Of a stretch of 32,177 nt of DNA, positions 5,670 to 23,047 are shown piece by piece. Within the stretch, counting starts at the first letter, position 1, and every line of letters starts with the position of its first letter. This DNA is from Prochlorococcus sp. AG-409-L21 (GTDB taxonomy: Bacteria > Cyanobacteriota > Cyanobacteriia > PCC-6307 > Cyanobiaceae). The notes under the pieces are model-generated. The model made no database searches. It worked only from the letters and a program-made list of their open reading frames with translations, and was not told the origin of the DNA. Made by a program: the position numbers and the translations under genes. The stretch spans positions 1-32,177 of the forward strand of contig QCKH01000014.1 of assembly GCA_003215475.1 (NCBI GenBank). Reading direction: 5' to 3'.

Positions 5670-6092
5670 ATGAATTTTTTTAGAAGATGTTGTGAATCAA
5701 AGAGAGAATGTTTAACATATGTTATAATTTTGATATGGGTAGGTATAGGAATATTAGGTACATATTATGACACTAATTTTAATGAACTAGCCGCTTATTT
5801 TATTTCCTTAACTGGTTTTGCGGGGGCATATATGTATGGTGAGTCAATGAGACAAAGTAATGATGCATCAATATTCAGACCGGGTAAATCTAGTAAACGT
5901 GAAATTATTATTTACATAACTGTGGGGTTATGGTTATTAATTGGGATTTTTACTATAATTAATAAGGCAGATTTAATGGGTATGAGTGCATATTTTGCAG
6001 CACTTACACCATTTGTTGGTTCTTATATTATAGGGGAAACCCTTAAAAAAGAAGATGAAGATAACGAAGAAGTAGAAGAAGATGAGGGTTAA
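5670..6092 (+). CDS. Membrane protein made of two duplicated halves
   Basis: A 140-aa protein with four hydrophobic segments (about residues 17-33, 39-58, 80-95 and 104-122). The halves align with each other: LAAYFISLTGFAGAYMYGES in the first matches MSAYFAALTPFVGSYIIGET in the second, so it arose by tandem duplication of a two-helix unit. The tail (about residues 125-140) is almost all Glu and Asp and should be cytoplasmic. No family is recognised with confidence; the shape would suit a holin or other envelope protein. Its 3' end overlaps the next gene by 11 nt, so it heads the operon of KLTE-type proteins. Confidence 0.7.
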   Translation: MNFFRRCCESKRECLTYVIILIWVGIGILGTYYDTNFNELAAYFISLTGFAGAYMYGESMRQSNDASIFRPGKSSKREIIIYITVGLWLLIGIFTIINKADLMGMSAYFAALTPFVGSYIIGETLKKEDEDNEEVEEDEG

Positions 6093-6696
6093 ATTAACGG
6101 AAGAACAATATAATAGATTATTAAAAGAAAATGATAAAGATTTTCTTGATGGTATGGTTAACTTTAAAGAGATAGGTAATAAGGTTGATAGGTTTGTTAT
6201 AAGATGTTTTAATTTTATAAGAAAAAACTACACCAATCTTAAACAACTAAACAATGTACCTATGTTCTCAAAAAAGGTTGCTCAAGATTTAGTGATACCA
6301 AATGCAGTATCATTAGTTATCTGTTATAACTATTATTTAATTAATAATAAAATAAATCCTGAAAAATATGAAGGAGACTTTAGTGAATTTTTAGGTGAAC
6401 CATTAGAATTTTATGGGGAGTTTGAACTTAGGGAGGAGATTCCTCTGAGAGGGTATTTAAATGGATATCAAATGGGTACATATACTGGTTATGCTACTAA
6501 TCAAGAAGAGTTTTTAGATCAATTAGAAGATGGTGAATATTATAATTATGACGTAACTGATAATTATGTTGATTATGATGCATCTAACATAGACTGGGAA
6601 ATAGATGATGGATATGTAGATGATTTCCTTTACCAAAGAATAGACGATCAGGATAGAGAGGATCTAATAGATGGTGTAGAATTAGTAAATAAATAA
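6082..6696 (+). CDS. KLTE-type acidic protein, possible packaged head protein
   Basis: A 204-aa protein of unknown function. It starts MRVKLTEEQYNRLLKEN and so has two (L/I)xE sites (LTE, ending at residue 7, and LKE, ending at 16), the recognition form of T4-type prohead protease. The core FVIRCFNFIRK ... FLGEPLEFYGEFELREEIP is matched by the next gene (FIVRLFKKIRD ... LLGKPMEYMGVWKIPTHIP), so the two are diverged paralogs. The C-terminal third is packed with Asp and Tyr. It overlaps the membrane protein gene and lies 1 nt from the next gene. A capsid role is inferred from the N-terminus and the operon. Confidence 0.75.
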   Translation: MRVKLTEEQYNRLLKENDKDFLDGMVNFKEIGNKVDRFVIRCFNFIRKNYTNLKQLNNVPMFSKKVAQDLVIPNAVSLVICYNYYLINNKINPEKYEGDFSEFLGEPLEFYGEFELREEIPLRGYLNGYQMGTYTGYATNQEEFLDQLEDGEYYNYDVTDNYVDYDASNIDWEIDDGYVDDFLYQRIDDQDREDLIDGVELVNK

Positions 6697-6697
6697 A

Positions 6698-7375
6698 ATG
6701 AAAGTAAAATTAACAGAGAGTCAATATAATAGATTACTAACTGAGGACACTGGTGAGAACTGGGGTAGGGTTAGTAAAACTGTTAATGCTTTTATTGTAA
6801 GATTATTTAAAAAAATAAGAGATAAAATCCAAAATGGTGGGTTAAAAATGAATTCTGATATTGTAGATTTTATAAAAAATGATGTTTTTCTTACACAAGA
6901 AGAAGCAATTATTTTAGCACATAACTTTAAAGTTATGGTAGATTATCATTCAGAACAAGATTTAGATGAGTTGTTAGGTAAACCTATGGAGTATATGGGT
7001 GTGTGGAAAATACCTACACATATACCAACAGTGGTTGAATTGACGGGTAGAGGTTATCCTGATGGTAGAGTGTATGTTATGGGTAGAACACCACAGGAAG
7101 CATTAAGTACAATTACACATGGTTCAGAAAACGATTTTGAAGTGGGGCAGATGGATGAACTAGATGTAGATTCGATAATAGATGAATTTGATATGGATAT
7201 TGTAGATGGCGTATTCCCACAAAAAGGAATGGTACAAAATGATTTCTATGACGATGATATGGATGGTAAATTTGAGGTTCTACCATATATAGATGATGAT
7301 CAGAATGAACCTATGTCTTGGAGGTACGATTTAAAAAAACAACAATTAAATAATTTATTAAAAAATATAGGATAA
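6698..7375 (+). CDS. KLTE-type acidic protein, paralog of preceding gene
   Basis: A 225-aa protein starting MKVKLTESQYNRLLTED, with LTE sites ending at residues 7 and 16. It aligns loosely with the 204-aa neighbour over a helical N-terminal region and the LLGKPMEYMGVW motif. The second half is strongly acidic (DELDVDSIIDEFDMDIVDG) and would suit binding to basic partners or filling a head interior. No enzyme motif is visible. It is third in the operon, with 1-2 nt gaps on either side and no Shine-Dalgarno site (leader AAATAAA). Confidence 0.75.
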   Translation: MKVKLTESQYNRLLTEDTGENWGRVSKTVNAFIVRLFKKIRDKIQNGGLKMNSDIVDFIKNDVFLTQEEAIILAHNFKVMVDYHSEQDLDELLGKPMEYMGVWKIPTHIPTVVELTGRGYPDGRVYVMGRTPQEALSTITHGSENDFEVGQMDELDVDSIIDEFDMDIVDGVFPQKGMVQNDFYDDDMDGKFEVLPYIDDDQNEPMSWRYDLKKQQLNNLLKNIG

Positions 7376-7377
7376 AA

Positions 7378-7932
7378 ATGGGTCGATTAGCAAAATTAAA
7401 AAGAGAATTAATATTAGAATCTAATAAAAGATTATTGGGTGAAAGTAAAAGTTATTTGACTGAAGAAGAAAAAGAAGAAATAAGATTACCTTTTATAAAG
7501 TTAGTGACTAAATATAAAACTGCGTTACAAGGAATTATAGAAAACCTTAATTTTGAAAATAAACAAGAGGAAGAAGAATTTTGTATTAACAAAAAAAGCC
7601 GTGTTACTGATGTAACAGAAAAATTAGATGATTTAATTAACAGAATGGCTTTAGATATGGAAAAAAAACATAAGAAAGAAGTTACTCCAGAACAAGTTCT
7701 GGAAGCATTATATGATAAAGGTAATAATGGATTAATAAAGACAATTATTAATATTGCTAAACCATTAGTAGATGCATTTGGTAATCAAAAAGGTGCTATA
7801 ATGTCTAAAGAAATATTAGATGGTATTGAAGAAAATATGAGAACAAAATACGGTCAAATTGGTAGAGGAATAAATAGTATGTTAACAGAAATTATGTCAA
7901 AATTAAATGTGTCGGTAGAGGACATATGTTAA
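7378..7932 (+). CDS. Helical protein with LxE-rich N-terminus, unknown
   Basis: A 184-aa, mostly helical and charged protein. The N-terminus (MGRLAKLKRELILESNKRLLGES) is basic, then shows ILE (ending at residue 14) and LGE (ending at 22), in keeping with the propeptide-like starts of its operon neighbours although the exact KLTE form is missing. Residues 30-184 contain long amphipathic helices and no membrane segment, metal motif or catalytic signature. It starts 3 nt after the preceding gene. Function unknown; a head-internal or scaffold-like role is only a guess from context. Confidence 0.7.
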   Translation: MGRLAKLKRELILESNKRLLGESKSYLTEEEKEEIRLPFIKLVTKYKTALQGIIENLNFENKQEEEEFCINKKSRVTDVTEKLDDLINRMALDMEKKHKKEVTPEQVLEALYDKGNNGLIKTIINIAKPLVDAFGNQKGAIMSKEILDGIEENMRTKYGQIGRGINSMLTEIMSKLNVSVEDIC

Positions 7933-7944
7933 TAAAAATTCATT

Positions 7945-8418
7945 ATGAAAATTAAACTTACAGAATCACAATATAAAAAAGTAGTCCTAAGAGAGTTTGG
8001 GGAAACAGTTATTGATCCGAAAGAATGGTACTTACAAATACTTTCTTGGGTAGATTCACCTAATGATTTAACATTCAAAAGCAGTGCACACGAAGTTGTC
8101 GTTTTTGATCAAGATGGTGTGTATTTAGGTTATTATGACAAAGAACAAGGTTTTGGATTTGTAGTCAATGAATACGATGTAGATTCTATAACTGATGATG
8201 AGTTAATTGATGAACAAGAAGAAGGTGGTACTTCAGATTCTGCATCTACTGGTGGTGGGTCAGGTACAGTCTGGGACGTTTCACCCACAAGGGGTCCCGC
8301 TAATACATTAGATAATAGTCCATGGTCGGTAAGTCCTAATAGAGGACCAGCTAATACATTAGATAATAGTCCATGGTCAGTAAGTCCTAATAGAGGACCC
8401 GCTAATGAGATAAATTAA
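7945..8418 (+). CDS. KLTE-type protein with C-terminal tandem repeats
   Basis: A 157-aa protein starting MKIKLTESQYKKVVLRE, with LTE ending at residue 7 and LRE at residue 17. Residues about 20-90 form a small domain of unknown type (ILSWVDSPNDLTFKSSAHEVVVFDQDGVYLGYY). A Gly/Ser linker follows, then from residue 112 a 17-residue unit (VSPNRGPANTLDNSPWS) is repeated 2.7 times to the C-terminus. The repeat is polar and Pro-rich and likely disordered. It is the last gene of the 5670-8418 operon. The repeat could bind a partner several times over; no function is known. Confidence 0.75.
   Translation: MKIKLTESQYKKVVLREFGETVIDPKEWYLQILSWVDSPNDLTFKSSAHEVVVFDQDGVYLGYYDKEQGFGFVVNEYDVDSITDDELIDEQEEGGTSDSASTGGGSGTVWDVSPTRGPANTLDNSPWSVSPNRGPANTLDNSPWSVSPNRGPANEIN
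8278..8415 (+). repeat. 51-bp tandem repeat, 2.7 copies, in coding sequence
   Basis: Three copies of a 51-bp unit (8278-8328, 8329-8379, 8380-8415 partial) encode the Pro/Asn-rich 17-residue repeat. Copies two and three are nearly identical at the DNA level; copy one differs mainly at its start, which suggests recent expansion by slippage or recombination. Confidence 0.9.
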
Positions 8419-8517
8419 TTATTTAGATTTTGGTTTAGTTGGTGTAGGAGTGCTACTACCACTACTTTTTGGTTTTGGTTTTGGTGTTGGTTTCTTTTTT
8501 TTACATCCACATCCCAT
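8419..8517 (-). CDS. Tiny Lys/Pro-rich MGCGC peptide (32 aa)
   Basis: On the minus strand an ATG at 8517-8515 opens a 33-codon frame ending in TAA at 8421-8419. It encodes MGCGCKKKK, then alternating Thr/Pro/Lys, a short SSGSS and TPTPTKPKSK. The Cys-Gly-Cys start and the basic proline-rich tail look deliberate, not random. Very small proteins of this kind beginning MGCGC or MCGC are, from memory, seen in metagenomic phage genomes, without known function. An oriented CTATTTAT motif lies 39 nt upstream. The stop codon directly follows the stop codon of the convergent gene (8416-8418). Confidence 0.55.
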   Translation of the reverse strand: MGCGCKKKKPTPKPKPKSSGSSTPTPTKPKSK

Positions 8518-8556
8518 AATATTTGTTTTTTTTAAATTTTCTTATTAACTTTATTA

Positions 8557-8564
8557 ATAAATAG
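8557..8564 (-). promoter_or_regulatory. CTATTTAT motif, candidate late promoter (minus)
   Basis: Read on the minus strand the sequence is CTATTTATTAATAAAG, 39 nt upstream of the MGCGC peptide start. It is the only promoter-like site for that gene. Confidence 0.45.
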
Positions 8565-8616
8565 TGATAAAAGTAAGAATTGTAAATAAAATTTAGTAAA
8601 AATATATCTCTTAAAA

Positions 8617-8648
8617 TTTGGATTTAAGAGAAAAAAGTATTATATTTG
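8617..8648 (+). promoter_or_regulatory. Bacteroidota-type promoter TTTG-N20-TATATTTG
   Basis: TTTG at 8617-8620, a 20-bp spacer and TATATTTG at 8641-8648 match the primary sigma consensus of Bacteroidota exactly (-33 TTTG, -7 TAnnTTTG). Transcription should begin at about 8654, leaving roughly 10 nt of leader before the ATG at 8665. Confidence 0.8.
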
Positions 8649-8664
8649 TTTAAATTTGGTAACT

Positions 8665-9820: not shown

Positions 9821-11922
9821 AAAATTTATTGGAACAAAAAGATATTGCAATTAAAATTATGAAAGTATTAAATTCTTTAGGTACTTTACCCGATAGAGGA
9901 TTTTTAGCCGGAGGTGCAGTAGCTAATACATTATTAAAGATTAAATACGGTAATAAAGCGACATACCCAATAAATGATTTAGATATTTTTGTTGAAGCAA
10001 ACGAAGATACCCATAATAATACATTTAGTAATACCCCAATTAGAACAAAAGAATTAGTAATTAGTGAAGGTTATTATGTGGGGGATGTAGATTATGATAT
10101 GGAAAGTTCTTATAGAATTTTAAAGGTGGATAGAGAAGAATTAATTAATACTATTACTATATCGAGAATAAATGATAAAGAAAATAATAGAGATTATCTA
10201 TATATATTAAATGCGTTCGATTTCAATTGTTGTCAAGTTGGAATTGATTTGTCTACCGCTGAATTGTATTATACCACACATTTTGAAGAATTTTTAAATA
10301 GTCAACAATTAGATGTTACTGCGATATATACACCAGCACATACCGCCATAAGATTATTTAAAAAAATTGAAGAGTTAAACTGTTATTGTAATATAGAAAA
10401 ATGTATGGAAATACTTTCTCACCCTTTAATTTATGATGTAAGGTGGAGATTGGTTCCGAGACAATGGGGGTTTTATTTTGGGGATAAATACAAAGATATG
10501 TATAAAAAATATTTCTCTAAACTAAAAGAATATTTTAAATTAGTAAGGTTTTTCGATGATAAAAAAAGTTTATGGGATGCTAAAAATCATGCTTTATCAC
10601 CTCAACCATTAGATGATAATCATGCGGCACATTGGTTAGATCCTAAGAATAGTATACCACCTAATCTTTTATCTAAATGGGCAGAATTTAATGATGTAAT
10701 ATGGTCTTTACAACCAATTAAATATAACACACCTAATAAACTAATTATGGACAAGGTGTATGTTGGTTTTAGTAGTCCCATCGCATTTATTAACGCCTAT
10801 TATTATGTAAATGGTAAAGTTAAAAAATCTTTAATTAAAAAATGTGAAGTTATTTTTGAAAGGACAAAACATTTAAAAAAATTATTAGTTATTAATATGG
10901 ATTTTGCGGACTGTGATTTCGATATTAAACACTTAGATGAACTAGAAGGGTATGTTTCAGATAATTTAAATTATATGTTTGCAATATTAAAATATAATTT
11001 AAATTTACAGGAGAGTATTAAGTTATTTAAAAACATTAGTAGAATACAGAAAAAAGAAGGTGAATGGATGGTATTTGTTCTTACAGAGGCATTAAAAAAT
11101 GGTAATAAAAACCTTAAACCATCTTATGAAAATTTAATGTCTTTAGTTAAAGAACATAAAGCAATAATGGCAAAACCATTAACCGCACCTTTAATTAACA
11201 TTGATGAAATACCTCTACCTAAAGATGTTAATATAAAAGAAATATTATCAGAAACCGAAATTCAATGGGCAGGTACTAAATTAAGAAATTGTATCAATAA
11301 TGAGGGACAAAATTATAAAGAAAAAATAGAAAAAGGTGACGTTAAAATTTTTGTTATTATGACACCTAATAGTTGTTCTGCAGTAGAATATCACTTAACT
11401 AAAAGTACTGCCCAACTTAAAGAAAAACAATTATTATCTACATGTAATAAAAAACCTAGTAGATATCATAGATTATTGGCAGATTTATTAACTACTTATA
11501 TAAACCGTAAAATTTTACAAAGATATTATAACACCCATATGAATACCTATAGTTCATTATTAACATTATATAATGGATTGTTGCCCTCTGCGGTAGATGA
11601 AAAAACTGATCAAAATGAACAAGTTTTTGGTTTTGCTGCGAATATAGATGAAGATTGGGAAGGAAACCAGGAGGAAGAAATAGTAGACGATTTCCAGTTT
11701 GATTTTTACGACATTGAACCAACGCCGCCTGAAATAGACAATATTAGAGAACAGGTAGAAGCTCAAGTTGCTTTTGAAAGGGATGTAGTGACAGAAACAC
11801 TTAATAATCCAGTGAGAGAATGGGTTAGGAGAACAATAACACCACTTCCATTAGATTATACAATTAATACTACTTTAAGAGACAATGATAACCCAGATCC
11901 GGATGATGTTTGGGATACATAG
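9817..11922 (+). CDS. Nucleotidyltransferase-fold protein fused to PcfJ-like domain
   Basis: A 701-aa protein. Residues about 25-190 look like a pol-beta-type nucleotidyltransferase: FLAGGAVAN (Gly32-Gly33), NDLDIF (Asp54, Asp56), then FDFNCCQVGIDL as a likely third acidic strand, followed by TPAHTAIRLFKK. The substrate is unknown; CCA-adding enzymes and antitoxin-type nucleotidyltransferases share this core. Residues about 480-570 (WAGTKLRNCINNEGQNY ... IEKGDVKIFVIM) resemble the PcfJ-like domain found on plasmids and phages. The last 130 residues are acidic and probably disordered. It overlaps the small membrane gene by ATGA. The fusion is unusual; the PcfJ call is from motif memory only. 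Confidence 0.65.
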   Translation: MKNLLEQKDIAIKIMKVLNSLGTLPDRGFLAGGAVANTLLKIKYGNKATYPINDLDIFVEANEDTHNNTFSNTPIRTKELVISEGYYVGDVDYDMESSYRILKVDREELINTITISRINDKENNRDYLYILNAFDFNCCQVGIDLSTAELYYTTHFEEFLNSQQLDVTAIYTPAHTAIRLFKKIEELNCYCNIEKCMEILSHPLIYDVRWRLVPRQWGFYFGDKYKDMYKKYFSKLKEYFKLVRFFDDKKSLWDAKNHALSPQPLDDNHAAHWLDPKNSIPPNLLSKWAEFNDVIWSLQPIKYNTPNKLIMDKVYVGFSSPIAFINAYYYVNGKVKKSLIKKCEVIFERTKHLKKLLVINMDFADCDFDIKHLDELEGYVSDNLNYMFAILKYNLNLQESIKLFKNISRIQKKEGEWMVFVLTEALKNGNKNLKPSYENLMSLVKEHKAIMAKPLTAPLINIDEIPLPKDVNIKEILSETEIQWAGTKLRNCINNEGQNYKEKIEKGDVKIFVIMTPNSCSAVEYHLTKSTAQLKEKQLLSTCNKKPSRYHRLLADLLTTYINRKILQRYYNTHMNTYSSLLTLYNGLLPSAVDEKTDQNEQVFGFAANIDEDWEGNQEEEIVDDFQFDFYDIEPTPPEIDNIREQVEAQVAFERDVVTETLNNPVREWVRRTITPLPLDYTINTTLRDNDNPDPDDVWDT

Positions 11923-11924
11923 TA

Positions 11925-11937
11925 ATATTTATAAATA
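11925..11937 (+). promoter_or_regulatory. ATATTTATAAATA, candidate late promoter
   Basis: The motif abuts the HNH gene start (ATG 11937-11939), so any transcript started here would be leaderless or begin inside the gene. It is an inverted repeat, reading similarly on both strands. Confidence 0.35.
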
Positions 11938-12434
11938 TGGAAAGTATTTTGGTATTAAATGCGGATTATACACCCATTAACATAACAGATCTAAAAAGAG
12001 CTTTTAACTTAATCTATAAAGGTAAAGCGGAAATTATTAAACATAATATTATTTCACCCATAATTACGGAATTAAAAAATTTTAAACGACCAACTATTAT
12101 AAGGTTATTAAGATATATTAGTATTCCATTTAGGAAAGTTAATTTAAATAGACAAAATATATTTAGAAGAGATAAATTTAAATGTGGTTATTGTGGTGAA
12201 AAAAATAAATCTAAACTTACTATTGATCATATAATCCCTAAATCTAAAGGGGGTAAAAATACTTGGCAAAATTTAGTCACATGTTGTAAATCTTGTAACA
12301 TCAAAAAAGATAACAACTCTTTAGAAGAGGTTGAGATGACATTAAATTGTGTTCCTTATAGACCAACCTATATTCAATTCGTTAAAAATATCACTATTAG
12401 TTATAGTGAGGACTGGTTACCCTTCCTCGTTTAA
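11937..12434 (+). CDS. HNH endonuclease
   Basis: I start at the ATG at 11937; the TTG at 11910 would lie inside the upstream gene. The product is 165 aa. The N-terminal part (MESILVLNADYTPINI ... RAFNLIYKGKAEII) is the one usual in stand-alone HNH proteins of bacteria and phages. The HNH core follows at about residues 85-125: CGYC, DHIIPKSKGG, NLVTCCKSCN. The two CxxC pairs hold a structural zinc, and the DH plus the later Asn form the metal-binding active site. It cuts DNA; homing, packaging or host-DNA breakdown are all possible. It is not an IscB or Cas9: it has no RuvC domain and is far too short. Confidence 0.88.
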   Translation: MESILVLNADYTPINITDLKRAFNLIYKGKAEIIKHNIISPIITELKNFKRPTIIRLLRYISIPFRKVNLNRQNIFRRDKFKCGYCGEKNKSKLTIDHIIPKSKGGKNTWQNLVTCCKSCNIKKDNNSLEEVEMTLNCVPYRPTYIQFVKNITISYSEDWLPFLV

Positions 12435-12494: not shown

Positions 12495-12508
12495 TGTTAA
12501 ACGGAAAT

Positions 12509-12715: not shown

Positions 12716-13221
12716 TCTGTGGGTAATGTGCCTAATTGTTTGTTTAATTCATATAAACCACTTCCACTATCACCTATAATTTTTAAATCGTCAATAATAC
12801 TTTTAAACTTTGTCTCTTCTTCACGTTGCTCAATTACGAACCATTGCATAAAATTTTCAGTATTCACATCGTTAATTTCTTTACATTTAGTAACAATTTT
12901 ATTTATTGATTCTGTTACTTGCCTTTCATTATATAAAGAATTTTGAAAATGAGATAAAATATCAAACTCTTCATCTAAGTCTTCCATAAAATTATAATTA
13001 GGTATTAAGGGTTGACTATCTTGATCCAACATGTACTCCATTATCTTTAACATATGTTCTCGTTCTTCATTAGATTGTTCTAAAAAAAACTTGGAAATTC
13101 CGTTATAACCATTTTCACCAAATTGGTTGGATAAATATAGATAATAAAAAGATGCGTTATTTTCTAACCAAATTTGTTCGTTTAATAAACTAATGACTTG
13201 CTTGTCTAAAGCACTATTCAT
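12709..13221 (-). CDS. Ferritin (FtnA-like iron storage protein)
   Basis: I start at the ATG at 13221-13219, which overlaps the end of the bS21 gene, and not at 13248, which lies deep inside it. The product is 170 aa, the normal bacterial ferritin length. All diiron (ferroxidase) ligands are present by alignment to E. coli FtnA: Glu20, Glu53, His56, Glu99 and Gln132, with EEE at 134-136. The signatures NEQIWLE, EEREHM, MQWFVIEQREEE and GDSGSGLYELNKQLGTL are typical. It should oxidise Fe(II) and store iron in a 24-mer cage in the cytoplasm. Neither a heme-ligand Met nor an encapsulin tag is evident. It is translated from the same mRNA as bS21. Confidence 0.93.
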   Translation of the reverse strand: MNSALDKQVISLLNEQIWLENNASFYYLYLSNQFGENGYNGISKFFLEQSNEEREHMLKIMEYMLDQDSQPLIPNYNFMEDLDEEFDILSHFQNSLYNERQVTESINKIVTKCKEINDVNTENFMQWFVIEQREEETKFKSIIDDLKIIGDSGSGLYELNKQLGTLPTEE

Positions 13222-13405
13222 CTTCTTCTCTTTTTTTCTTTTGTACATATTTTGCTTTATTTACTTCTTTTCTTCTTATAACTGATGGTTTGGTAAACTC
13301 TTCCCTTTCTCTACATTTTCTCGCAACTTTAGTTTTTATGAATTTACTTTTCATTTCTTTGAGTGCCCTCTCAATATTACCTTTTTTTACGTTTACTTTT
13401 AACAT
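13214..13405 (-). CDS. rpsU: Ribosomal protein bS21
   Basis: A 63-aa protein starting MLKVNVKKGNIERALKEMKS and including REEFTKPSVIRRKEVNKAKY. This is the Bacteroidota form of bS21 (compare the RQAFIKPSVVKRAQ pattern in flavobacteria). Tyr53 aligns with the Tyr that, in Flavobacterium ribosomes, helps hold the anti-Shine-Dalgarno tail of 16S rRNA out of action. The tail is a short basic-then-acidic KKKREEDE. An AAAGGA directly abuts the ATG, too close to act as a normal Shine-Dalgarno site. The TAG stop overlaps the ferritin start by 8 nt. bS21 is the ribosomal protein most often carried by phages; it likely biases host ribosomes. Confidence 0.92.
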   Translation of the reverse strand: MLKVNVKKGNIERALKEMKSKFIKTKVARKCREREEFTKPSVIRRKEVNKAKYVQKKKREEDE

Positions 13406-13731: not shown

Positions 13732-13739
13732 ATATTTAT
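13732..13739 (+). promoter_or_regulatory. ATATTTAT motif, candidate late promoter
   Basis: The site (TATATATTTATATAG context) lies 17 nt upstream of the GTG start at 13757 and heads the two-gene unit 13757-15974. Confidence 0.5.
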
Positions 13740-14860: not shown

Positions 14861-14861
14861 G

Positions 14862-15974
14862 ATGAAATTATTTAAGATATACGAACAAGTTGAACAAGAA
14901 CAGAAGAAAGAACCAAAAAAGGTTACACTTACACCTGTAGATAAAAAATTCCTTAAAATTATGTCTAAAAAGAATGTTGATGTTACAGATGGTGCAGAAA
15001 TATGGGAGTTTTTAAGTGATACTTTGTTTTTAGAAGATATGGATTTAAAACTTAGGTTAGCTTATTTGTATATGCAAGACTTAATTGATGAAGATGAGGG
15101 AGAATCTTATGATGATTTAATTGCAGTTAATTTAGATATAGATGAACTTAATAAAAAGTTTGATGATAAGATATTAGCATTATCTGCAGAGTTAGGTGAA
15201 CCACCTTTTGTAATCGGAGACGGTGATGGTTGGAGGCATTATGGTTTAGATACTTACGAAGTAGATGGTGACACATATGCGGTAGGCGACGAAGATGATA
15301 TGGATAATGCAATGGAAGAATACGCTCAAAATATGATAGATGAGGGATTAGACCAATTTGAGTCATGGTGGATTGAACAATATTTAGAACCTAATGACAC
15401 TGACATAGAACAATTTGCGGAAGAAGAAGCCGACCATAGAATAGAGGATTTAACAGACGAAGAAATATTGGAGGAAACTGGTGAAGAAGGACCGGATGAT
15501 TTTAGAGAGTATTTAGAAATAAAAGTAAGTGAAAAAGAAGATTACGAGTCTCAAAAAGAAGATTTAGAGGACGAATTAAACGATTTAGATTTCGATGAAG
15601 ATGAAGAAAGAATGGAAGAAATAGAAGATGAAATTGCAGAAATAGAAAGTGAGATAAATGATTTAGATGAAGAAATTTCTGACTTAGAAAGTAAAATATC
15701 CGATTTTGATATTGATGAAGCGAAAGATGAATTGAGACAAACTTATATCGATAACACTTTAGATGAGATTAGATCAGATGGTGTTAGTTATTTTACTAGC
15801 AATTTAGGGATGGACTTTAATGATGCAGTAGATTATTATTTTTGGTTCGATGAAGAATCTGCCAAATACGATTTAGCTAATGAACAAGGTTACGAACCTG
15901 TTTGTTCTTATGATGGAGGTTATAATGAACAAGAAGTTGATGGTATAGTATATTATTTACTTCGTGTAGATTAA
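14862..15974 (+). CDS. Acidic coiled-coil paralog with T4-type N-terminal propeptide
   Basis: A 370-aa paralog of its neighbour. It starts MKLFKIYEQVEQ with an IxE site (IYE, residue 8). The shared module is at about residues 24-75 (LTPVDKKFLKIMSKK ... IWEFLSDTLFLEDMDLKLRLAYLYMQ). The middle region has SAELGEPPFVIGDGDG and YAVGDEDDMDNAMEEYA. Residues about 220-290 are an extreme Glu/Asp coiled coil (DLEDELNDL, IEDEIAEIESEINDLDEEI). The end, VDGIVYYLLRVD, matches the family C-terminus. It is cotranscribed with 13757. Possible roles are head filling, DNA mimicry or inhibition of a basic host protein; none is shown by the sequence. Confidence 0.75.
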   Translation: MKLFKIYEQVEQEQKKEPKKVTLTPVDKKFLKIMSKKNVDVTDGAEIWEFLSDTLFLEDMDLKLRLAYLYMQDLIDEDEGESYDDLIAVNLDIDELNKKFDDKILALSAELGEPPFVIGDGDGWRHYGLDTYEVDGDTYAVGDEDDMDNAMEEYAQNMIDEGLDQFESWWIEQYLEPNDTDIEQFAEEEADHRIEDLTDEEILEETGEEGPDDFREYLEIKVSEKEDYESQKEDLEDELNDLDFDEDEERMEEIEDEIAEIESEINDLDEEISDLESKISDFDIDEAKDELRQTYIDNTLDEIRSDGVSYFTSNLGMDFNDAVDYYFWFDEESAKYDLANEQGYEPVCSYDGGYNEQEVDGIVYYLLRVD

Positions 15975-16199: not shown

Positions 16200-16227
16200 A
16201 ATAACACTTAAAAACTTAAACTTATGA
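16141..16227 (+). CDS. Possible 28-aa leader peptide coupled to T9SS cargo gene
   Basis: An ATG at 16141 opens a 28-codon frame (MEKTVLHTKGGSVFFRVRTL and eight further residues) whose TGA at 16225-16227 overlaps the ATG of the 962-aa gene (ATGA). It runs right through the leader hairpins, so its translation would open them. It may be chance; the ATGA overlap is the only support. Confidence 0.3.
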   Translation: MEKTVLHTKGGSVFFRVRTLITLKNLNL

Positions 16228-19112
16228 AAAAATTTATACACATCGTATTAACATGTTTTTTATTTATTGCATGTTTACCAGTTTATAGTCAAATCAGTAC
16301 TTTTCCTAATACGACTGATTTTGAATCCGGATTCGGAGACTGGAACCAATCATCATCCGATAATTTTGATTGGACTTTAAGGAGTAGTGCAACAACACCG
16401 TCTTCTGGTACTGGTCCACAATCTGGACCATATGGGGCAAATGGTACTAGTGGGTATGCATTTACCGAAAGTTCCTCACCACGAACTAATAACGATGTGG
16501 CAAGAATTTTTATTACTTTAGATTTAAGTAGTTATTCAAGTTGTTCAATAGCATTTAACTATCATCAGTATTCGAGTTATGGTTATGGTCCGGGAACTTT
16601 AAGATTAAAAGTTTATAAAGGAAACTCTGGGTCAGGAGGTACAGTAGATTACCCTTGGTCCAATAGTAGTAGTGTAAATGGTTGGCAAAGTGCGGTTGTA
16701 GATCTTTCTAGTTATGTAGGATATACGTATGTACAACTTTCATTTGAATCTATTTTACCTTCCACCGGCACTTGTTGGCAATCTGATAATTGTGTTGATG
16801 AAATAGTTATTGATGCTGCTAGTTGTGTTAATGCATGGAATGGGGCAGCGAATGATGGGGATTGGAATAATTCTCAGAACTGGACCTGTGGAAGTATCCC
16901 TTCTTCAAGTGAAAATATTACAATATCGGCAGGTGCACTTTCTTATCCAGCCCTTACGTCTTCCGCTACTGTTAATAGTTTAACTGTAGATGCAGGTGGA
17001 GAACTCAATATAAATAATCCTTTAGCGATACTTACAGTTAATGGTAATTTTAGTGCTAGTGGTATAGTAAATATAGTAGATGGGAAATTAGATATTACTG
17101 GTACTGCAGATTTTAATAGAGGGGCAACCATTATCAATGGTGAGATAGAAGTAGACGGAGCAACTACTATAGGATCTGGTTATGTATTAGATATTGGTGA
17201 TGGAACTTTTGATGCTAATGGTAATTTTGATGCAACTGTAGACCCACCTACTTTTCCTAATGCAGATATTAATTTTGGGAATAGTGGTAAATTAACACTT
17301 GCTGGTACAACAAATTATTTAGGTGATTTAAGTACTAGTTCTGGAACTGTAGAGTATGATGGTAGCACGCAAACAATAGTTACTGACACTTATTATAATA
17401 TAGAAGTTGATGGTTCAGGAACTAAAACACTGAGTGGTAATGTTACAGTAGGAGGTGATGTTACAATATCAAATGGTGTAATGGATATTGCTTCTAATAA
17501 TTTAACGATAGGAGGTAATTTTTCTACAGTACAATATGGGTTTGATGAAGGAACAGGAACCGTAACATTTAATGGAAGTAATTCACATAGTGTAACACAT
17601 AATGGTTCTAGTGAAAATACTGCAAGTCAATATAATTCTATAACTGAAAGTTTCCCTAGTGGGACAGGGACCCATACATGGACAACTACAACAATAATGG
17701 GTAATACATGGGCAATAGATGCCAGTGGTTTTGCATTCTATTATTATGATGCTTCCTCTTCTGCCTTTTCAGGTCTATGGAGTGAAGGTATAATATTAAA
17801 TGCGGGAGATCAAATAACCGTTACTTGGAAAGATAGGACTGGTGGATATACTGAAAAGTATGCCGTTTTATTAAATACTTCAACATCACATATAGGGGCA
17901 ACTACTCTTCATGATAACAGTGGATTTTCAACTACAACATGGACTTCACGATCGGAAGTTCATACAATAACTACATCAGGAACTTATTATCTGGGATATT
18001 TATGTTATTCAGCTGCAGATATGTTTTGGTTAGGAATTGATGATATTACTATAGATGTAGATGGTACTATTGCTTCGGATGTTGCAGGTAAATTAAATAA
18101 TTTTACAATTGATGGTGATGGTGATGTAACATTAAGTTCACCATTAACGGTAAATGGTACACTTACACTTACAAATGGTGATGTAATTACTAGTTCTACT
18201 AATTATTTAAAATTAGGTAAAAATGGTAGTGTGTCTGGTGGGGACAATGATTCTCATATTGTGGGTGATATTAAAAAAGAAACGGAAAGTACTTCTTCTG
18301 TAACTATACCTGTGGGAGACGGTAATTTGTATAGACCCGTAGTAATAACACCAGTTAACGCAACTAACGAAACATGGTCAATTAAATATTATAATACTGC
18401 ACATTCTAATACAACAATGGGGAGTGGTTTACATCACGTATCTCAGTACTATTGGGATATAAGTAGAAGTGGAAGTAATACCGCAACTTTATCATTTGAT
18501 TGGGACGCTTCATATGCGGTAGATGTACCAATAGATTTAAGAATGGCACATTTCAACGGTACAGAATGGGAAGAATTAAATACTACTATTAGTGGTGTTG
18601 GTGGAAGCGGTCAAGCTACCGCCTCTACAGGAAGAATCACTGCAACCGCAAACTCATTTAGTCCGTTTGGTTTTGGAAGTAGTAGTAGTGGTAACGCATT
18701 ACCTATTGAATTGATATCTTTTACTGGTAGGGAAGATGCTGGTAATGTAAGGTTAGATTGGGAAGTAGCATCTCAAAATAATAATGATTATTTTACCGTT
18801 GAAAAATCTACAGACTTCACGGATTGGGAACAAATAGGGAAATTACCAGGTGCGGGAAATACTAGTCAACATATGAGTTATACTTTGTATGATGAAAGAC
18901 CATTAGTCGGACATAATTACTACAGACTTACTCAAACCGATTATGATGGAATATACGAAACTTTTCACCCAATAGTTGTTACAATAAAAGGTGAAAGAAA
19001 AGAAGTGGTTAAAGTATATAATCAAATTGGACAAGAAGTGGGTATTGATTCTAAAGGTTTGGTAATTTTATTATGGGATAATGGTGATATTACTAAAACT
19101 ATTAATGATTAA
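16224..19112 (+). CDS. Secreted MAM-domain protein with type IX secretion-like C-terminus
   Basis: A 962-aa protein with a signal peptide (residues 1-23, ending VYSQ). Residues about 30-205 resemble a MAM/lectin-like jelly-roll domain (FESGFGDWNQSSSDNFDW ... SDNCVDEIVIDAA). It is followed by repetitive beta-strand units rich in Thr, Ser, Gly and Asn, with an SGTHTW-type lectin-like stretch near the middle. From about residue 825 it has the segment typical of Bacteroidota T9SS cargo (LPIELISFTGRE, NNDYFTVEKSTDFTDWEQIG, YYRLTQTDYDG), then VKVYNQIGQEVG and a short ending. The final sorting domain is shorter and less regular than usual. It should be exported to the cell surface through host Sec and T9SS. 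An adhesin, glycan binder or superinfection blocker are possible roles. Confidence 0.82.
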   Translation: MKKFIHIVLTCFLFIACLPVYSQISTFPNTTDFESGFGDWNQSSSDNFDWTLRSSATTPSSGTGPQSGPYGANGTSGYAFTESSSPRTNNDVARIFITLDLSSYSSCSIAFNYHQYSSYGYGPGTLRLKVYKGNSGSGGTVDYPWSNSSSVNGWQSAVVDLSSYVGYTYVQLSFESILPSTGTCWQSDNCVDEIVIDAASCVNAWNGAANDGDWNNSQNWTCGSIPSSSENITISAGALSYPALTSSATVNSLTVDAGGELNINNPLAILTVNGNFSASGIVNIVDGKLDITGTADFNRGATIINGEIEVDGATTIGSGYVLDIGDGTFDANGNFDATVDPPTFPNADINFGNSGKLTLAGTTNYLGDLSTSSGTVEYDGSTQTIVTDTYYNIEVDGSGTKTLSGNVTVGGDVTISNGVMDIASNNLTIGGNFSTVQYGFDEGTGTVTFNGSNSHSVTHNGSSENTASQYNSITESFPSGTGTHTWTTTTIMGNTWAIDASGFAFYYYDASSSAFSGLWSEGIILNAGDQITVTWKDRTGGYTEKYAVLLNTSTSHIGATTLHDNSGFSTTTWTSRSEVHTITTSGTYYLGYLCYSAADMFWLGIDDITIDVDGTIASDVAGKLNNFTIDGDGDVTLSSPLTVNGTLTLTNGDVITSSTNYLKLGKNGSVSGGDNDSHIVGDIKKETESTSSVTIPVGDGNLYRPVVITPVNATNETWSIKYYNTAHSNTTMGSGLHHVSQYYWDISRSGSNTATLSFDWDASYAVDVPIDLRMAHFNGTEWEELNTTISGVGGSGQATASTGRITATANSFSPFGFGSSSSGNALPIELISFTGREDAGNVRLDWEVASQNNNDYFTVEKSTDFTDWEQIGKLPGAGNTSQHMSYTLYDERPLVGHNYYRLTQTDYDGIYETFHPIVVTIKGERKEVVKVYNQIGQEVGIDSKGLVILLWDNGDITKTIND

Positions 19113-19137
19113 AACCTATACTTTTATTTATCTATAG

Positions 19138-19145
19138 ATATTTAT
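19138..19145 (+). promoter_or_regulatory. ATATTTAT motif, candidate late promoter
   Basis: The site is only 6 nt from the ATG at 19152, so a transcript from here would have almost no leader. Confidence 0.45.
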
Positions 19146-19151
19146 GTGTAT

Positions 19152-19946
19152 ATGAAAAAGAAACACATAATTAAGTCAGGTAAAAGACTAGTTAAGAAAA
19201 AAATAAAGTCAATAAAAGAATCTACTGACCTAAATTTGATTAATGAAGGTAAGTTAGAGGATTTAAAATCATCTTGGTCAGCATTTGTGGATGGTGCACG
19301 AAGAGAGGGTAAGGAAACTACTGAAGCAGCAAAAATTTTATCGAAGATATTAAATAGAAAAGAAGTTTCAGAAGAAGAAAAAAAATTTCTTAAAGAACAA
19401 TCAAAAGACTTAGCACGAATAGTAGCAGTTATGGGGTTAGGTGCAGTATCTATGGCACTACCAGTGGCATTAGAAAAGATTTTAAATAAATGGGGAATCA
19501 GTATTTTACCTAAAAATCAATCTAAAGAATTGGAGGGGGAGAAAGAAGAAATAAATGAGTCTACTGGTAATCTTTTATATTCTGCAGTAGTTTTAGATGA
19601 CGATGATCAAGATAATTTAATTATGTTTGTAGAGGATTATGTAGATATCCCACTAAATTGGAAAAAAATTGCCCATCATATGACGATAGGGTTTAAACAA
19701 CCAGTACCACCCCATCTAAGAGATGGTATTGGAAAAACCGTCCAACTAGCAGTAAAAGAAATAGGTGTTTCTGAAGATGCAATAGCGGTTAAAGTAGATG
19801 GTTATCCTAGTAGTAATAAAATACCACACGTTACAATTGCAATACCTAAAGATGGTAAACCATTCCATTCAAATTTAATTACTGATTGGAGACCAGTTGA
19901 CGAAGAAATCATTATTAAAGGAAAGGTGAGAGAAATCTATTCTTAA
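19152..19946 (+). CDS. LETM1-like segment fused to 2H phosphoesterase, with LxE-type N-terminus
   Basis: I use the ATG at 19152 (MKKKHIIKSGKRL), two codons inside a GTG-started frame; the product is 264 aa. The basic N-terminus has IKE (residue 23) and INE (residue 32) sites. Residues about 35-125 (SSWSAFVDGARREGKET ... KKFLKEQSKDL ... ALPVALEKILNKWGISILPK) recall the LETM1-like domain. Another INE precedes the second domain. Residues 140-264 show two HxT motifs, His176-Met-Thr178 in HHMTIGF and His226-Val-Thr228 in PHVTIAI, 50 residues apart, as in 2H phosphoesterases that open cyclic phosphates on RNA ends or process nucleotides. Fold calls are from motifs alone. Confidence 0.72.
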   Translation: MKKKHIIKSGKRLVKKKIKSIKESTDLNLINEGKLEDLKSSWSAFVDGARREGKETTEAAKILSKILNRKEVSEEEKKFLKEQSKDLARIVAVMGLGAVSMALPVALEKILNKWGISILPKNQSKELEGEKEEINESTGNLLYSAVVLDDDDQDNLIMFVEDYVDIPLNWKKIAHHMTIGFKQPVPPHLRDGIGKTVQLAVKEIGVSEDAIAVKVDGYPSSNKIPHVTIAIPKDGKPFHSNLITDWRPVDEEIIIKGKVREIYS

Positions 19947-19948
19947 TT

Positions 19949-19961
19949 ATATTTATTAATA
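19949..19961 (+). promoter_or_regulatory. ATATTTATTAATA, candidate late promoter
   Basis: This is identical over 13 bp to the site at 5648-5660. It ends 1 nt before the ATG at 19963 and heads the unit 19963-23047. Confidence 0.5.
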
Positions 19962-19962
19962 T

Positions 19963-20760
19963 ATGATTAAGTTTAAAGACATATTAAAAGAATCAGAAGA
20001 TTTAGATACATTAGTTAATAGAAAACTATTGAATATAGTTGCAAAAAAGTTTGATTTAAATTTTAGGTATGATGATTTGTCTAACCCACTAATAGATCAG
20101 ATAAGAAGATCAGGAATTATTAGTTTTATGGAAGAGACATTGGCTTTAGATTATCAACAAATTGCAGAGTTATGTTGGGTGATATTTTTAAACGGATCTA
20201 TAGATTATTTAACTGATTCTATAAAAACAGATGAAACTTTTTATGTGTATGAAGTAGGTTACTATGGTGAAATGGGACATGAGGAAGTGGAGTTAGATGG
20301 TGAGTGTGGTGATTGTGACGGAATGGGTACACAAAATAATGACTGTCAAAATTGTCAGGGTTCTGGAGAATATGATTATGGTGAAGGTGAAGTGGAATGT
20401 GAAGACTGTGGTGGTGGTGGAGAAGTAGAAAATGACTGTTGGAACTGTGAAGGAACAGGTATTGATTACTTTACTGAGGATGAATATTATCTAGCAGATA
20501 ATACAGTAATATTTTATAGTAATGAACCTGATTTAGATAAACCTATAAAGGAAGAAACAAATTTTGAAAAGTGGTACGAAGATAATGAGGCACTTTTAAT
20601 ACCGATGGTTGATAGATGGGAGGACACAGAATCTAGTTTTGAAGAAACGGACTTTGAAGATACAGAAGGAACAGTTAATGCGTATTATCCACAAGGTGAT
20701 ATAAGTTTTGACAATATAAGATTTAGAACGTATTTTAGAAATTTAATTGAACATAGATAA
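19963..20760 (+). CDS. Paralog-family protein with four DnaJ-type zinc motifs
   Basis: A 265-aa protein starting MIKFKDILKES, with an LxE site (LKE, residue 10) as in T4 internal proteins. The shared family module is at about residues 15-85 (LVNRKLLNIVAKKFDLNF ... ISFMEETLALDYQQIAELCWVIFLNGS). Residues 115-166 contain four CxxCxGxG motifs (CGDCDGMG, CQNCQGSG, CEDCGGGG, CWNCEGTG), the pattern of the DnaJ cysteine-rich domain, enough for two zinc ions. There is no J domain. The rest is acidic. The TAA overlaps the next ATG by one base. It may bind unfolded proteins or only use zinc for structure. Confidence 0.78.
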   Translation: MIKFKDILKESEDLDTLVNRKLLNIVAKKFDLNFRYDDLSNPLIDQIRRSGIISFMEETLALDYQQIAELCWVIFLNGSIDYLTDSIKTDETFYVYEVGYYGEMGHEEVELDGECGDCDGMGTQNNDCQNCQGSGEYDYGEGEVECEDCGGGGEVENDCWNCEGTGIDYFTEDEYYLADNTVIFYSNEPDLDKPIKEETNFEKWYEDNEALLIPMVDRWEDTESSFEETDFEDTEGTVNAYYPQGDISFDNIRFRTYFRNLIEHR

Positions 20761-21761
20761 TGATAAAGTTTGTTGACATATTAAAAGAGCAAGAGGAAAT
20801 AATTGAAGTTCCTAAATTGGACACACCTACCAATAGGAAGTTAATGAACATCATATCTAAAAAATTTGATTTTGATTATTTTAGAGAACAGGCAGATAAA
20901 TGGAATTTAGGACATAAAAGTCATATATTTTTTAACAGGTATATGAAAGGTGATAATAAAAATAGAGATTTACCATATAATAACATGGAACAATTTATGG
21001 ATGGTACATTAGCACTTCCCAAATCCAAAATTAGAGAATTAGCGTTCCTACTAATAACTAATTTAAAGGTAGAGAATTGGTTGACTGATCCTATTTTAGA
21101 ACCTTACGATTATTATTACTATACAGTTGATTATTATGATGATTATATAAGTGATGAAGAGGAGGAAGATTGTGAGACTTGTGATGAATGTGGTGGTAGT
21201 GGATATGAAGATGAAGATTGTGGGTATTGTGATGGTGAAGGAGAAGTAAATTACGAATGTGGAATGTGTGATGGTTCAGGAAGTATAACAGATGATGAAG
21301 GTGAAGAAGAAGAATGTGATGAATGTGGTGGATCTGGAAATGAAGAAACAGAATGTGATGAATGTCATGGTGGTGGTAGATCTAATGAAGATTGTCATTG
21401 GTGTGGTGGAGAAACAGAAATATGTGAAACACATTATTACAAACAACTGGATAAGTTAAAAATAAAACTTATATCACCAGTTAAATTACCAACACCCGGA
21501 GAAGAAGTGGGTGACTATTATACTGAAGATTATACTGATTGGATGGAGAAGGTTAGTGAGATTGATGGGGTAATAGTATTAGGTGAATACCATTGGGATC
21601 AGGAGCAAGATGAATATGATCCAGATGATGATAATTATAAGAGTGAGTTATATGAAAAAGAAAATAAAATTACGTGGTTTTATGAAGAACCGTTTAGAAA
21701 AGTATTGGAGTCAACACCAATTCATAATTCGTCACACCCTTTTAAATTTGTAGTAAGATGA
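20760..21761 (+). CDS. Paralog-family protein with six DnaJ-type zinc motifs
   Basis: A 333-aa protein, the close paralog of the preceding one. It starts MIKFVDILKEQ (LKE, residue 10). The family module is at about residues 20-105 (TPTNRKLMNIISKKFDFDYF ... MEQFMDGTLALPKSKIRELAFLLITN). Residues 138-219 hold six Cys-pair motifs (CDECGGSG, CGYCDGEG, CGMCDGSG, CDECGGSG, CDECHGGG, CHWCGG), two more than the neighbour, separated by acidic loops. The C-terminal 110 residues are acidic, Tyr-rich and unrecognised. Its TGA overlaps the next start (ATGA). The extra motifs suggest expansion by internal duplication. Confidence 0.78.
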   Translation: MIKFVDILKEQEEIIEVPKLDTPTNRKLMNIISKKFDFDYFREQADKWNLGHKSHIFFNRYMKGDNKNRDLPYNNMEQFMDGTLALPKSKIRELAFLLITNLKVENWLTDPILEPYDYYYYTVDYYDDYISDEEEEDCETCDECGGSGYEDEDCGYCDGEGEVNYECGMCDGSGSITDDEGEEEECDECGGSGNEETECDECHGGGRSNEDCHWCGGETEICETHYYKQLDKLKIKLISPVKLPTPGEEVGDYYTEDYTDWMEKVSEIDGVIVLGEYHWDQEQDEYDPDDDNYKSELYEKENKITWFYEEPFRKVLESTPIHNSSHPFKFVVR

Positions 21762-23047
21762 AACTATTTAACCTCATATCCGAATCTAATGACAGTAATA
21801 TAAAGTATAGTGAGTTAAAGCCTGTGGAAAGAAAGTTATTGCAATTTATGTTAGGGAAGGGAATCATTTATAATAATGATAAATTAATATATAAATTTAT
21901 TAAAGATATCTTGGCAATAGATGACTTAGAAACACAAACTAGATTAATTAATTTATATATGTTAAATGCGTTGACTGCAATGAAACTAGATAAGGGTTTT
22001 TTAGAAATGGATAAAGTAATTGAGTTAGATACTACTGATAGTAATGATTATCGTAAAGTAGTGTCAGAATTTAAAGGTATACCAGAGACATTTGTGGTGG
22101 AAGTTTATAAGGGACAAATAAATGATGTGTATGATGTTTATCTACCAGAGTATAGAGTATTTGATGTGGCGAGAGGTCAATATGAAACTTATCAAATTGC
22201 TAGAGATTCTGATGAAGCTTGGGTTGCAGCAGAAACTAGAGTTAATGATATAATTCAAAGTGAAGGTTATGATGCAATGAATCAAGAGTGGTTAATGAAT
22301 TTTGTCGAACCGGATGAAACGGCTATTGTATATGATATAGAAGAGGGTGCAATGGATAGAGCGAGAGACTTAGATGAAGATGAATTAAGAGATGAACTAT
22401 TTGCGTACAGACCATCGGCAGGTGATAATTATGAAAGTGCAATTGATGAAATTGAATTCACCAAAGAAGAAATTAAAAAACTTACCTTAGAGATACAAGA
22501 AAAGGAATTTAAAAAGGATGAAATAGAAGGGGAGTTAATAGTTCTAGAAAAAGATATTGAAAGAATAGATTATTATAGTGATGACGAAACAAACTATAGA
22601 GATATGGAGTATAGTGAAGAGATTGATGAATTACAACAACAATACAATGATTATAAAAGAATCTTTGAGGAACTAGAAATATATTTGGAACAATCCTATA
22701 GAGAGTTAGATAAAAACCAAACTGAACTAGAAGAACAGAAAGAAATTATAGAGGAATATAGTGGTGACCGTCTTAGAGATTTATATGTTGAAGAAGTAAC
22801 TGCTGATAGAACACATGAGGCACTTAACGATATTGAAGATTGGTTAGATGATAGAGGTTTAGAAATTTCTGAAGCATTGGATTATGGTTTAATACACATT
22901 GATAAAGGTGAGGTAATTGAAGGGGCAGTCGAGTCAGATGGGGTAGGTCATTGGTTAGCGGGATATGATGGATACGAAAATGAAGAAACTATTACAATAG
23001 AAGATGGGGATTATTCTGATCCTTTTTATCTTTTTAGAATAGAATAA
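21758..23047 (+). CDS. Acidic coiled-coil paralog with T4-type N-terminal propeptide
   Basis: A 429-aa protein starting MKLFNLISESNDS, with an ISE site at residue 9. The family module is at about residues 20-75 (LKPVERKLLQFMLGKG ... YKFIKDILAIDDLETQTRLINLYMLN). The middle (FKGIPETFVVEVYKG ... EPDETAIVYDIEEGAMDRARDLDEDEL) aligns with the 370-aa protein at 14862, and the C-terminal YSDPFYLFRIE matches the family end. Residues about 220-345 form a long coiled coil. So 14862 and this gene are full-length paralogs, while the two zinc proteins share only the front. Last gene of its unit. Confidence 0.75.
   Translation: MKLFNLISESNDSNIKYSELKPVERKLLQFMLGKGIIYNNDKLIYKFIKDILAIDDLETQTRLINLYMLNALTAMKLDKGFLEMDKVIELDTTDSNDYRKVVSEFKGIPETFVVEVYKGQINDVYDVYLPEYRVFDVARGQYETYQIARDSDEAWVAAETRVNDIIQSEGYDAMNQEWLMNFVEPDETAIVYDIEEGAMDRARDLDEDELRDELFAYRPSAGDNYESAIDEIEFTKEEIKKLTLEIQEKEFKKDEIEGELIVLEKDIERIDYYSDDETNYRDMEYSEEIDELQQQYNDYKRIFEELEIYLEQSYRELDKNQTELEEQKEIIEEYSGDRLRDLYVEEVTADRTHEALNDIEDWLDDRGLEISEALDYGLIHIDKGEVIEGAVESDGVGHWLAGYDGYENEETITIEDGDYSDPFYLFRIE

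Follow-up and report, generated by a model that had tools for sequence, protein, structure and literature searches.

Short N-terminal leaders resembling T4 capsid-targeting propeptides on diverse proteins of a large phage within a Prochlorococcus assembly

Contig QCKH01000014.1 of the assembly for Prochlorococcus sp. AG-409-L21, the full 32,177 bases of which were analysed here and are called the window, encodes ten proteins that each start with a short N-terminal block, or leader, ending in leucine or isoleucine, any residue, and then glutamate. These blocks are probably T4-type capsid-targeting propeptides, of several families, carried by about thirty diverse proteins of one phage. For the ten, such a reading was put forward in the initial annotation of the DNA, and it is supported by the presence of an S77 prohead protease and by the conservation in orthologues of the glutamate that would be the P1 residue of the cleavage site. 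The ten open reading frames (ORFs) are at the positions claimed for them, and the first block of each ends in [LIV]xE, being L or I, x, E in 10 of 10:

6082–6696, + strand: 204-residue protein; KLTE-type leader MRVKLTEEQYNRLLKE (6082–6129), P1 E16; no body family assigned
6698–7375, + strand: 225-residue protein; KLTE-type leader with an LTE end at residue 16 (6698–6745), P1 E16; no body family assigned
7378–7932, + strand: 184-residue protein; MGRL-type leader with ILE at 14 (7378–7419), P1 E14, and LGE at 22; similar leader on bodies unrelated by BLAST at C9:2409 and C9:7631
7945–8418, + strand: 157-residue protein; KLTE-type leader with an LRE end at residue 17 (7945–7995), P1 E17; C-terminal repeats
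13757–14860, + strand: 367-residue protein; leader MKLLNYINE (13757–13783), P1 E9; shared post-leader domain at residues 15–85
14862–15974, + strand: 370-residue protein; leader MKLFKIYE (14862–14885), P1 E8; shared domain at 22–76; coiled-coil-like stretch (weak matches)
19152–19946, + strand: 264-residue protein; leader with IKE at 23 (19152–19220), P1 E23; helical module; [IL]NE followed by S, at 136; predicted 2H domain (19560–19943)
19963–20760, + strand: 265-residue protein; leader MIKFKDILKE (19963–19992), P1 E10; shared domain at 14–81; DnaJ-like Cys motifs (weak match)
20760–21761, + strand: 333-residue protein; leader MIKFVDILKE (20760–20789), P1 E10; shared domain at 20–104; Cys-rich cluster
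21758–23047, + strand: 429-residue protein; leader MKLFNLISE (21758–21784), P1 E9; shared domain at 19–71; coiled-coil-like stretch (weak matches)

That all ten have such a site is not by itself evidence, because they were originally chosen for that look. The early LxE or IxE sites claimed for the proteins at 7378 and 19152 are indeed there (ILE and LGE in the first, IKE in the second). The count of ten is too low, since by rule there are 30 leader proteins in 124 kb of this phage; the rule uses seeds from the same phages, misses some such as C9:41975, C9:54479 and window 19152, and includes at least one doubtful gene, window 31613. As to the bodies, the 2H fold that had been proposed is clear, and the DnaJ-like zinc clusters and coiled coils have just Pfam matches below the cut-off. 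There is no Pfam match above the curated cut-off for any of the ten full-length proteins, PHROGs gives only scattered weak matches for them (the best, E 7e-8, is for 20760 and has no known function), and scanning with the 20760 protein turned up just one relative. At the C-terminus of the KLTE protein at 7945 a sequence of the type WSVSPNRGPANTLDNSP is repeated directly, in three near-identical copies.

Prohead protease and conserved sites in the source phage

The window is the entire contig C14 of a 1.34-Mb assembly in 27 contigs. The guanine plus cytosine (G+C) content is 28.3–29.6% in contigs C9, C14, C17 and C18, as against 33.5–38.9% in the 15 other readable contigs sampled (22 of the 27 contigs were viewed, 20 of them up to the first 20 kb, and 3 of those were all N). 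Judged by composition and gene content, these four contigs (G000) appear to be a large phage binned with a bacterial genome, and its host group appears to be the Bacteroidota.

Contig C9 encodes a Peptidase_S77 protein (E 2.7e-25), a prohead protease like gp21 of T4, which adjoins terminase, portal, and gp23-like capsid genes identified with PHROGs. The GE.DHP and GVSSRG blocks of this protease, presumably the sites of the catalytic His and Ser, align to T4 gp21. A long acidic protein with no clear PHROGs match is encoded between the protease and the capsid gene and, by its position and make-up, is taken as a putative scaffold. C9 and the window are alike in composition and in leader families, and a near-identical MGRLAKLKREL leader is present in both, on bodies without BLAST similarity. 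In the related phage G011, a contig of 198 kb, the protease, the capsid gene, and a leader cluster syntenic with that of the window are all in one molecule. The gp21-like protease is therefore counted as belonging to the same phage as the leaders, and the search for such a protease, which had been proposed as a check on the capsid-targeting reading, was positive both in this assembly and, on the same contig as the leader cluster, in G011.

A comparison of N-termini across related phages had been proposed as well, and in it 30 of 30 orthologues, taken from three similar relatives, have the P1 glutamate aligned. Identity across these three relatives is 85% in the leader, 70% in the next ten residues, and 69% in the body. 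Within nine KLTE leaders, identical residues are encoded by the same codon in 195 of 313 cases, where 194.1 would be expected from codon usage. Synonymous codons are thus random at the conserved residues, which means that the conservation is of protein and not of DNA, and on this count a reading of the leaders as a DNA repeat or recombination site was rejected. The mean amphipathic moment is 0.329 in 29 leaders and 0.253 in 110 other N-termini (p 0.001).

T4 gp21 cleaves after L/I-X-E, and in T4 internal protein III (IPIII) ten residues are enough for targeting, residues 4 and 7 acting mainly in targeting and 8 and 10 in processing (PMC9026906). Of the 64 capsid-protein N-termini recovered in the present clade, all 64 carry (L/I/M)xE at the gp23-type position (55 found by pattern and 9 by eye, 51 of them distinct, from 82 sequences examined). 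The leader sites are to all appearance of the same type as those of the clade's own capsid proteins, and would be cleaved in the same way.

The sequence [LIV]xE with its E at residues 8–20 is found 288 times in 659 proteins of C9, C14, G001, G010, G011, and G012, compared with 174.6 expected from residues 40–74. In G003 and G008 there are 134 against 101.8, while the bacterial contigs have 30 against 36.8 and therefore no excess. The four contigs of this phage, taken by themselves, have a modest excess (61 against 44.6); observed and expected counts are 51 and 36.4 in T4, 53 and 43.5 in the Flavobacterium phage isolate immuto, and 21 and 18.6 in crAss001. The strict 10-residue T4 IPIII pattern is present in 2 of 210 T4 ORFs, these being IPII and IPIII, and in 2 of 165 ORFs here (19963 and 20760, with 0.11 expected). 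It has one match each in G010, G011, G012, and immuto and none in G001, G003, G008, crAss001, or the bacterial contigs; the orthologues of 20760 do not fit it. The likeness to T4 that had been claimed holds for the leaders of 10-residue type, two of the ten window leaders fitting the strict IPIII pattern, but not for the longer KLTE, MGRL, and RMxxLM leaders, which resemble those of T4 only in the (L/I/V)xE end and in their setting.

Leaders as modules and the genes that carry them

The N-terminal blocks are modules common to bodies that are unrelated by BLAST. Proteins were clustered by BLAST of residue 36 to the end (E 0.01) and the N-terminal 30-mers were compared across clusters, with length cut-offs that differed slightly among runs (75 to 90 residues). 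The 97 proteins of C9 and C14 fall into 90 clusters, and among the 4005 pairs whose bodies are unrelated by BLAST there are 43 with N-termini in common at a score of at least 40, compared with 0, 1, and 1 pairs at residues 31–60, 46–75, and 61–90, none with shuffled N-termini and 4 at the C-termini. One of the 43 is a pair of signal peptides, and two or three more look like chance or scaffold likeness. Across eight bacterial contigs the N-termini are shared by 1 of 9870 pairs. When C17, C18, and G011 are added (305 proteins, 235 clusters), there are 80 of 27,495 pairs, against 7 and 4 for internal windows and 5 for shuffles. At a threshold of 42 the groups are KLTE (15 body clusters, one probably by chance), MKxLIxKILKE (8), MGRL (3), and two of RMxxL(M/F) (3 and 3), after removal by eye of one group made up of 3 signal peptides and of three pairs resembling chance or ordinary homology.

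In T4, used as positive control over 145 of its 169 kb, IPII and IPIII are the top-ranked pair, although there is no overall excess (6 of 15,225 pairs against 4 and 3). There is likewise no excess in crAss001 (1 of 3655 pairs against 0 and 2), which is also without an S77 match. In immuto there are 16 of 15,400 pairs against 2 and 2, which by eye comprise 10 leader-like pairs, 4 of signal peptides, 1 tail pair, and 1 that is chance-like. The best 80 of at least 600 capsid-gene loci give 78 of 11,781 pairs against 2 and 0, some of them signal peptides.

Some bodies are found both with and without a leader. The domain shared by five of the window proteins starts at residue 14–25, behind the leader, and there is a natural leaderless control in the window, itself one of the six seeds of the shared-domain profile:

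24694–26565, − strand: 623-residue protein with the same domain from residue 3 and a C-terminal HAD domain

The orthologues of 24694 in G010, G011, and G012 also have the shared domain at residue 3 and no leader. The body of 19152 is clearly predicted to be a 2H phosphoesterase, as the structure model of this domain (predicted local distance difference test, pLDDT, 79.2) matches a CNPase in Foldseek (E 1.7e-5, query-normalised template modelling, TM, score 0.71) and has the motifs HMT and HVT, two HxT motifs being characteristic of this family. The full-length model of 19152 (mean pLDDT 41.8) was not used. The name Acb1 was considered for the 2H body and not upheld, since the viral folds of that name match weakly (E 2.4e-3 to 0.11, query-normalised TM score 0.43–0.48) and the CNPase type is stronger; profile searches of the 2H body against the sequences of solved structures gave nothing convincing.

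This enzyme lies behind a 136-residue leader module, and the end of the module, [IL]NE followed by S, is conserved in the window, G010, G011, and G012. It is leaderless, at 67–69% identity, in the short contigs L126 and L127, which by eye look like other phage types and in which, as fragments, the S77 profile has no match. Of 23 phage records with a relative of the 2H enzyme, 4 were examined, and leaderless 2H ORFs of 134, 139, and 141 residues were found in phage DAC19 and two crAss-like phages. There is no S77 match in DAC19 or PhiCrAssBcn2, and the Kolpuevirus record has a sub-threshold one (E 1e-3) within a frame of 882 residues. A similar case is the thioredoxin C9:43227 (PF00085, E 1.8e-17), where a KLTE leader is ahead of the domain at residues 52–136, and G011 has, at 158463, a leaderless thioredoxin-like protein of 98 residues, so named by eye.

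The leader genes also tend to share a promoter-like motif, ATATTTAT, with the head genes. It is found before ORFs of C9 and C14 in 36 cases against 4.0 expected, a nine-fold enrichment, and it precedes the terminase, portal, and protease genes, among others. In the window it heads the transcription units that would cover all ten leader genes:

5648–5655, + strand: ATATTTAT promoter-like motif at the head of the unit of 6082, 6698, 7378, and 7945; 22 nt before 5670
13732–13739, + strand: ATATTTAT motif heading 13757–14862
19138–19145, + strand: ATATTTAT motif before 19146/19152
19949–19956, + strand: ATATTTAT motif heading 19963–20760–21758

The motif is also present before leaderless genes such as 23381, 23949, 24694, and 29089. 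Under a first rule it is over 26 of 30 leader genes and 56 of 135 others in this phage (p 5e-6), and over 22 of 33 and 68 of 171 in G010 (p 0.007). Under a widened rule, which allows for miscalled starts, the counts are 27 of 30 and 60 of 135 in this phage (p 4e-6), 26 of 33 and 74 of 171 in G010 (p 2e-4), and 17 of 21 and 96 of 172 in G011 (p 0.034).

Proposed mechanism and alternative explanations

In immuto two leaders (EQFRRMQKLAGIITES and kin) match the C-terminus of the scaffold, EQVSRWQKLAGIIK, with scores of 49 and 42 that are reached by 0 of 716 internal windows. In the present phage the leader of C9:54479 scores 40 against the N-terminus of the putative scaffold (0 of 592 windows as high). 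In T4 the internal proteins co-purify with the scaffold gp22 (PMC9026906). The likeness suggests that docking may occur by mimicry of the scaffold; being strong in immuto and weak or absent elsewhere, it makes of scaffold mimicry a hypothesis with one strong case, and as a general rule it was not upheld in G003, G008, or T4.

The leader proteins would be made late, from the promoter-like motif that they have in common with the head genes, the association being seen in this phage. The short amphipathic leader may then dock on the prohead core, sometimes copying a scaffold end as in immuto, and the gp21-like serine protease would cut after (L/I/V)xE at the conserved sites, freeing the body inside the head. 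If T4 is a guide, the bodies would enter the next host cell along with the DNA. This could be an open system of address labels, in which unlike short leaders, some of them copied from the scaffold, allow any gene to be made injected cargo by a tag of about 10–25 residues, with a head kit of at least thirty proteins of redox, nucleotide-cleaving, and unknown function; the chances of this wider proposal appear to be about even. The 2H enzyme, leaderless elsewhere and labelled here, would on that proposal be a case of recruitment.

Several observations weigh against capsid targeting as set out above. S77 was not found in the G010 and G012 contigs, which are perhaps incomplete, in the profile search, and confidence was lowered slightly on that account; of the 4 phages that have the leader-bearing 2H enzyme, it was found in just 2, those of this assembly and of G011. 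In LR756511, a phage of 595 kb in which S77 is present, the 2H protein bears a short N-terminal extension that lacks a strict [LI]xE. The 30 orthologues are not independent events, because the three relatives resemble each other. The P1' residues of the ten leaders are S (5), Q (2), N, D, and F, where the capsid proteins have mostly A or S, and some leader-like proteins sit among tail genes. The N-terminus test misses IPI and Alt of T4, and BLAST does not exclude remote homology among the bodies. The motif was discovered in the same contigs used to test it, and under the first rule it is not associated with leader genes in G011 (13 of 21 against 87 of 172, p 0.36) or G012 (11 of 21 against 67 of 144, p 0.65), nor in G012 even under the widened rule (15 of 21 against 73 of 144, p 0.10). 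On the scaffold side, the C-terminus in the present phage matches the leader of C9:35063 at 30 (1 of 592), which would fail correction, the match in G011 is weak at 30 (3 of 851), and the scaffolds of G003, G008, and T4 match no leader. A non-leader enzyme of G008 reaches 35 (0 of 1042 windows as high), so that single scores near 35 can be chance. No virion proteomics was found for this phage or its clade.

It is unlikely, but deserves some weight, that the leaders bring proteins into the prohead and that the bodies are head-assembly or core proteins and not injected effectors. In T4, gp21 also cleaves the scaffold gp22 along with two further proteins of the core (PMC9026906), and some bodies here, such as C9:35063 and C9:12796, are by eye strongly acidic like core proteins. 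The cargo, on the other hand, holds a thioredoxin and a 2H phosphoesterase, which look like enzymes for the next cell, and the number and variety of the bodies would seem to be beyond the needs of a core. That the leaders are uncut tags which send the proteins elsewhere, for instance to the membrane, the tail, or a site of late assembly, is more doubtful. The amphipathic N-termini and the leader-like proteins among the tail genes would fit such tags, whereas the aligned glutamate of (L/I/V)xE in all 30 orthologues, at the site type of the capsid proteins themselves, and the lack of such N-terminus sharing in crAss001 would not.

The window encodes bS21, and Bacteroidetes phages with this protein are thought to alter late initiation (PMC9723584), so that the common 5' ends might serve translation initiation by a late, bS21-altered ribosome; this is very improbable, given the random synonymous codons at conserved residues and the lack, by eye, of such N-termini on the terminase, portal, and capsid genes. 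The clustering of the genes and the first domain common to five of the ten window proteins would fit relics of a gene duplication in the recent past or of a recombination hotspot. Such an origin of the repeated N-termini is nevertheless extremely improbable, as the counted pairs have bodies without BLAST similarity, the DNA is not conserved beyond the protein, and the leaders are more conserved than the bodies.

Neighbouring genes and known systems

Between the leader genes of the window is a gene for a secreted, Bacteroidota-like MAM-domain protein of 962 residues (16224–19112), with kin at the matching place in G010 and a few kb past the capsid gene in G008. The HNH protein at 11910–12434 has IscB as its best NCBIfam match, which falls short of the cut-off and covers just the HNH part. 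The lipoprotein and TonB-dependent receptor genes at 429–3961 match the rest of the contig in G+C, have no BLAST match among 1088 phage proteins, and were not seen beside the FKBP gene in G010, G011, and G012; they are either phage cargo or a chimeric contig end. The N-termini of the gene pair 23949 and 24362 (23949–24712) resemble by eye those of a pair (6356, 6818) between portal and protease in L016, and head-region genes therefore seem to move about in the clade. An intein-like insert of about 390 residues interrupts a relative's prohead protease in frame, directly after the DHP block, in L042 (6798–8675), and in L051 (2359–5454) the 1031-residue portal protein of another also has an in-frame intein-like insert, both as judged by eye.

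The bS21 gene is at 13214–13405 on the − strand (TIGR00030, 38.1 bits against a cut-off of 28.95) and adjoins a ferritin gene. It is likely to tie the phage to the bS21 phages of Bacteroidetes (PMC9723584), which likewise have bS21, large terminase, portal, prohead protease, and capsid genes; the window bS21 differs in being beside ferritin and not among the head genes. The study of those phages floats the possible packaging of bS21 itself, and its main text does not contain the words 'motif', 'promoter', or 'proteome' (PMC9723584).

The traits of T4-type capsid targeting that can be sought in sequence are all found in predicted form, scaffold binding apart. In common with IPI–III and Alt of T4 there are short N-terminal L/I-x-E leaders, an S77 protease, and a gp23-type capsid protein that is preceded by a protein in the position of the scaffold. 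Two of the window leaders conform to the strict IPIII pattern, and a conserved leader is found on diverse bodies (PMC3012670, PMC9026906). In contrast to T4, about thirty proteins carry leaders and not four, several unlike leader families are present in one phage, the leaders are up to 23 residues long, and the bodies include a thioredoxin, a 2H enzyme, and the shared domain. The ejection proteins of SPN3US and the phiKZ type are also many, packaged, and provided with protease-cut N-terminal propeptides, and the first 30 residues of DarB of phage P1 are enough to route a reporter to the capsid (PMC5694885, PMC9024508). SPN3US differs in that, besides the capsid protein and portal, four head proteins have propeptides of more than 100 residues, and of those described only that of gp45 (20 residues) has the length of a capsid targeting sequence; according to the same account, a counterpart of gp22 had not been confirmed in the giant phages (PMC5694885). 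In P1 the routing was shown for one protein, and that phage seems, from the published description, to have no separate scaffold (PMC9024508).

No published account of these leader families was found in a search that left out most subscription journals and bioRxiv preprints. New are the count of labelled proteins, the presence of several leader families in one phage, the enzymes in the cargo, and the resemblance to the scaffold in immuto. If the capsid-targeting reading is true, there are more leader-routed cargo proteins here than T4 is known to carry, and a test of the N-terminus, requiring no homology in the body, predicts which among the many unknown proteins in T4-like phages of Bacteroidota undergo packaging and injection, so that what large phages of this kind inject becomes directly testable. 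Scaffold mimicry would give a concrete hypothesis of the docking by which a capsid targeting sequence reaches the core, and the leaders could also be put to use as tags that bring proteins into heads of this type.

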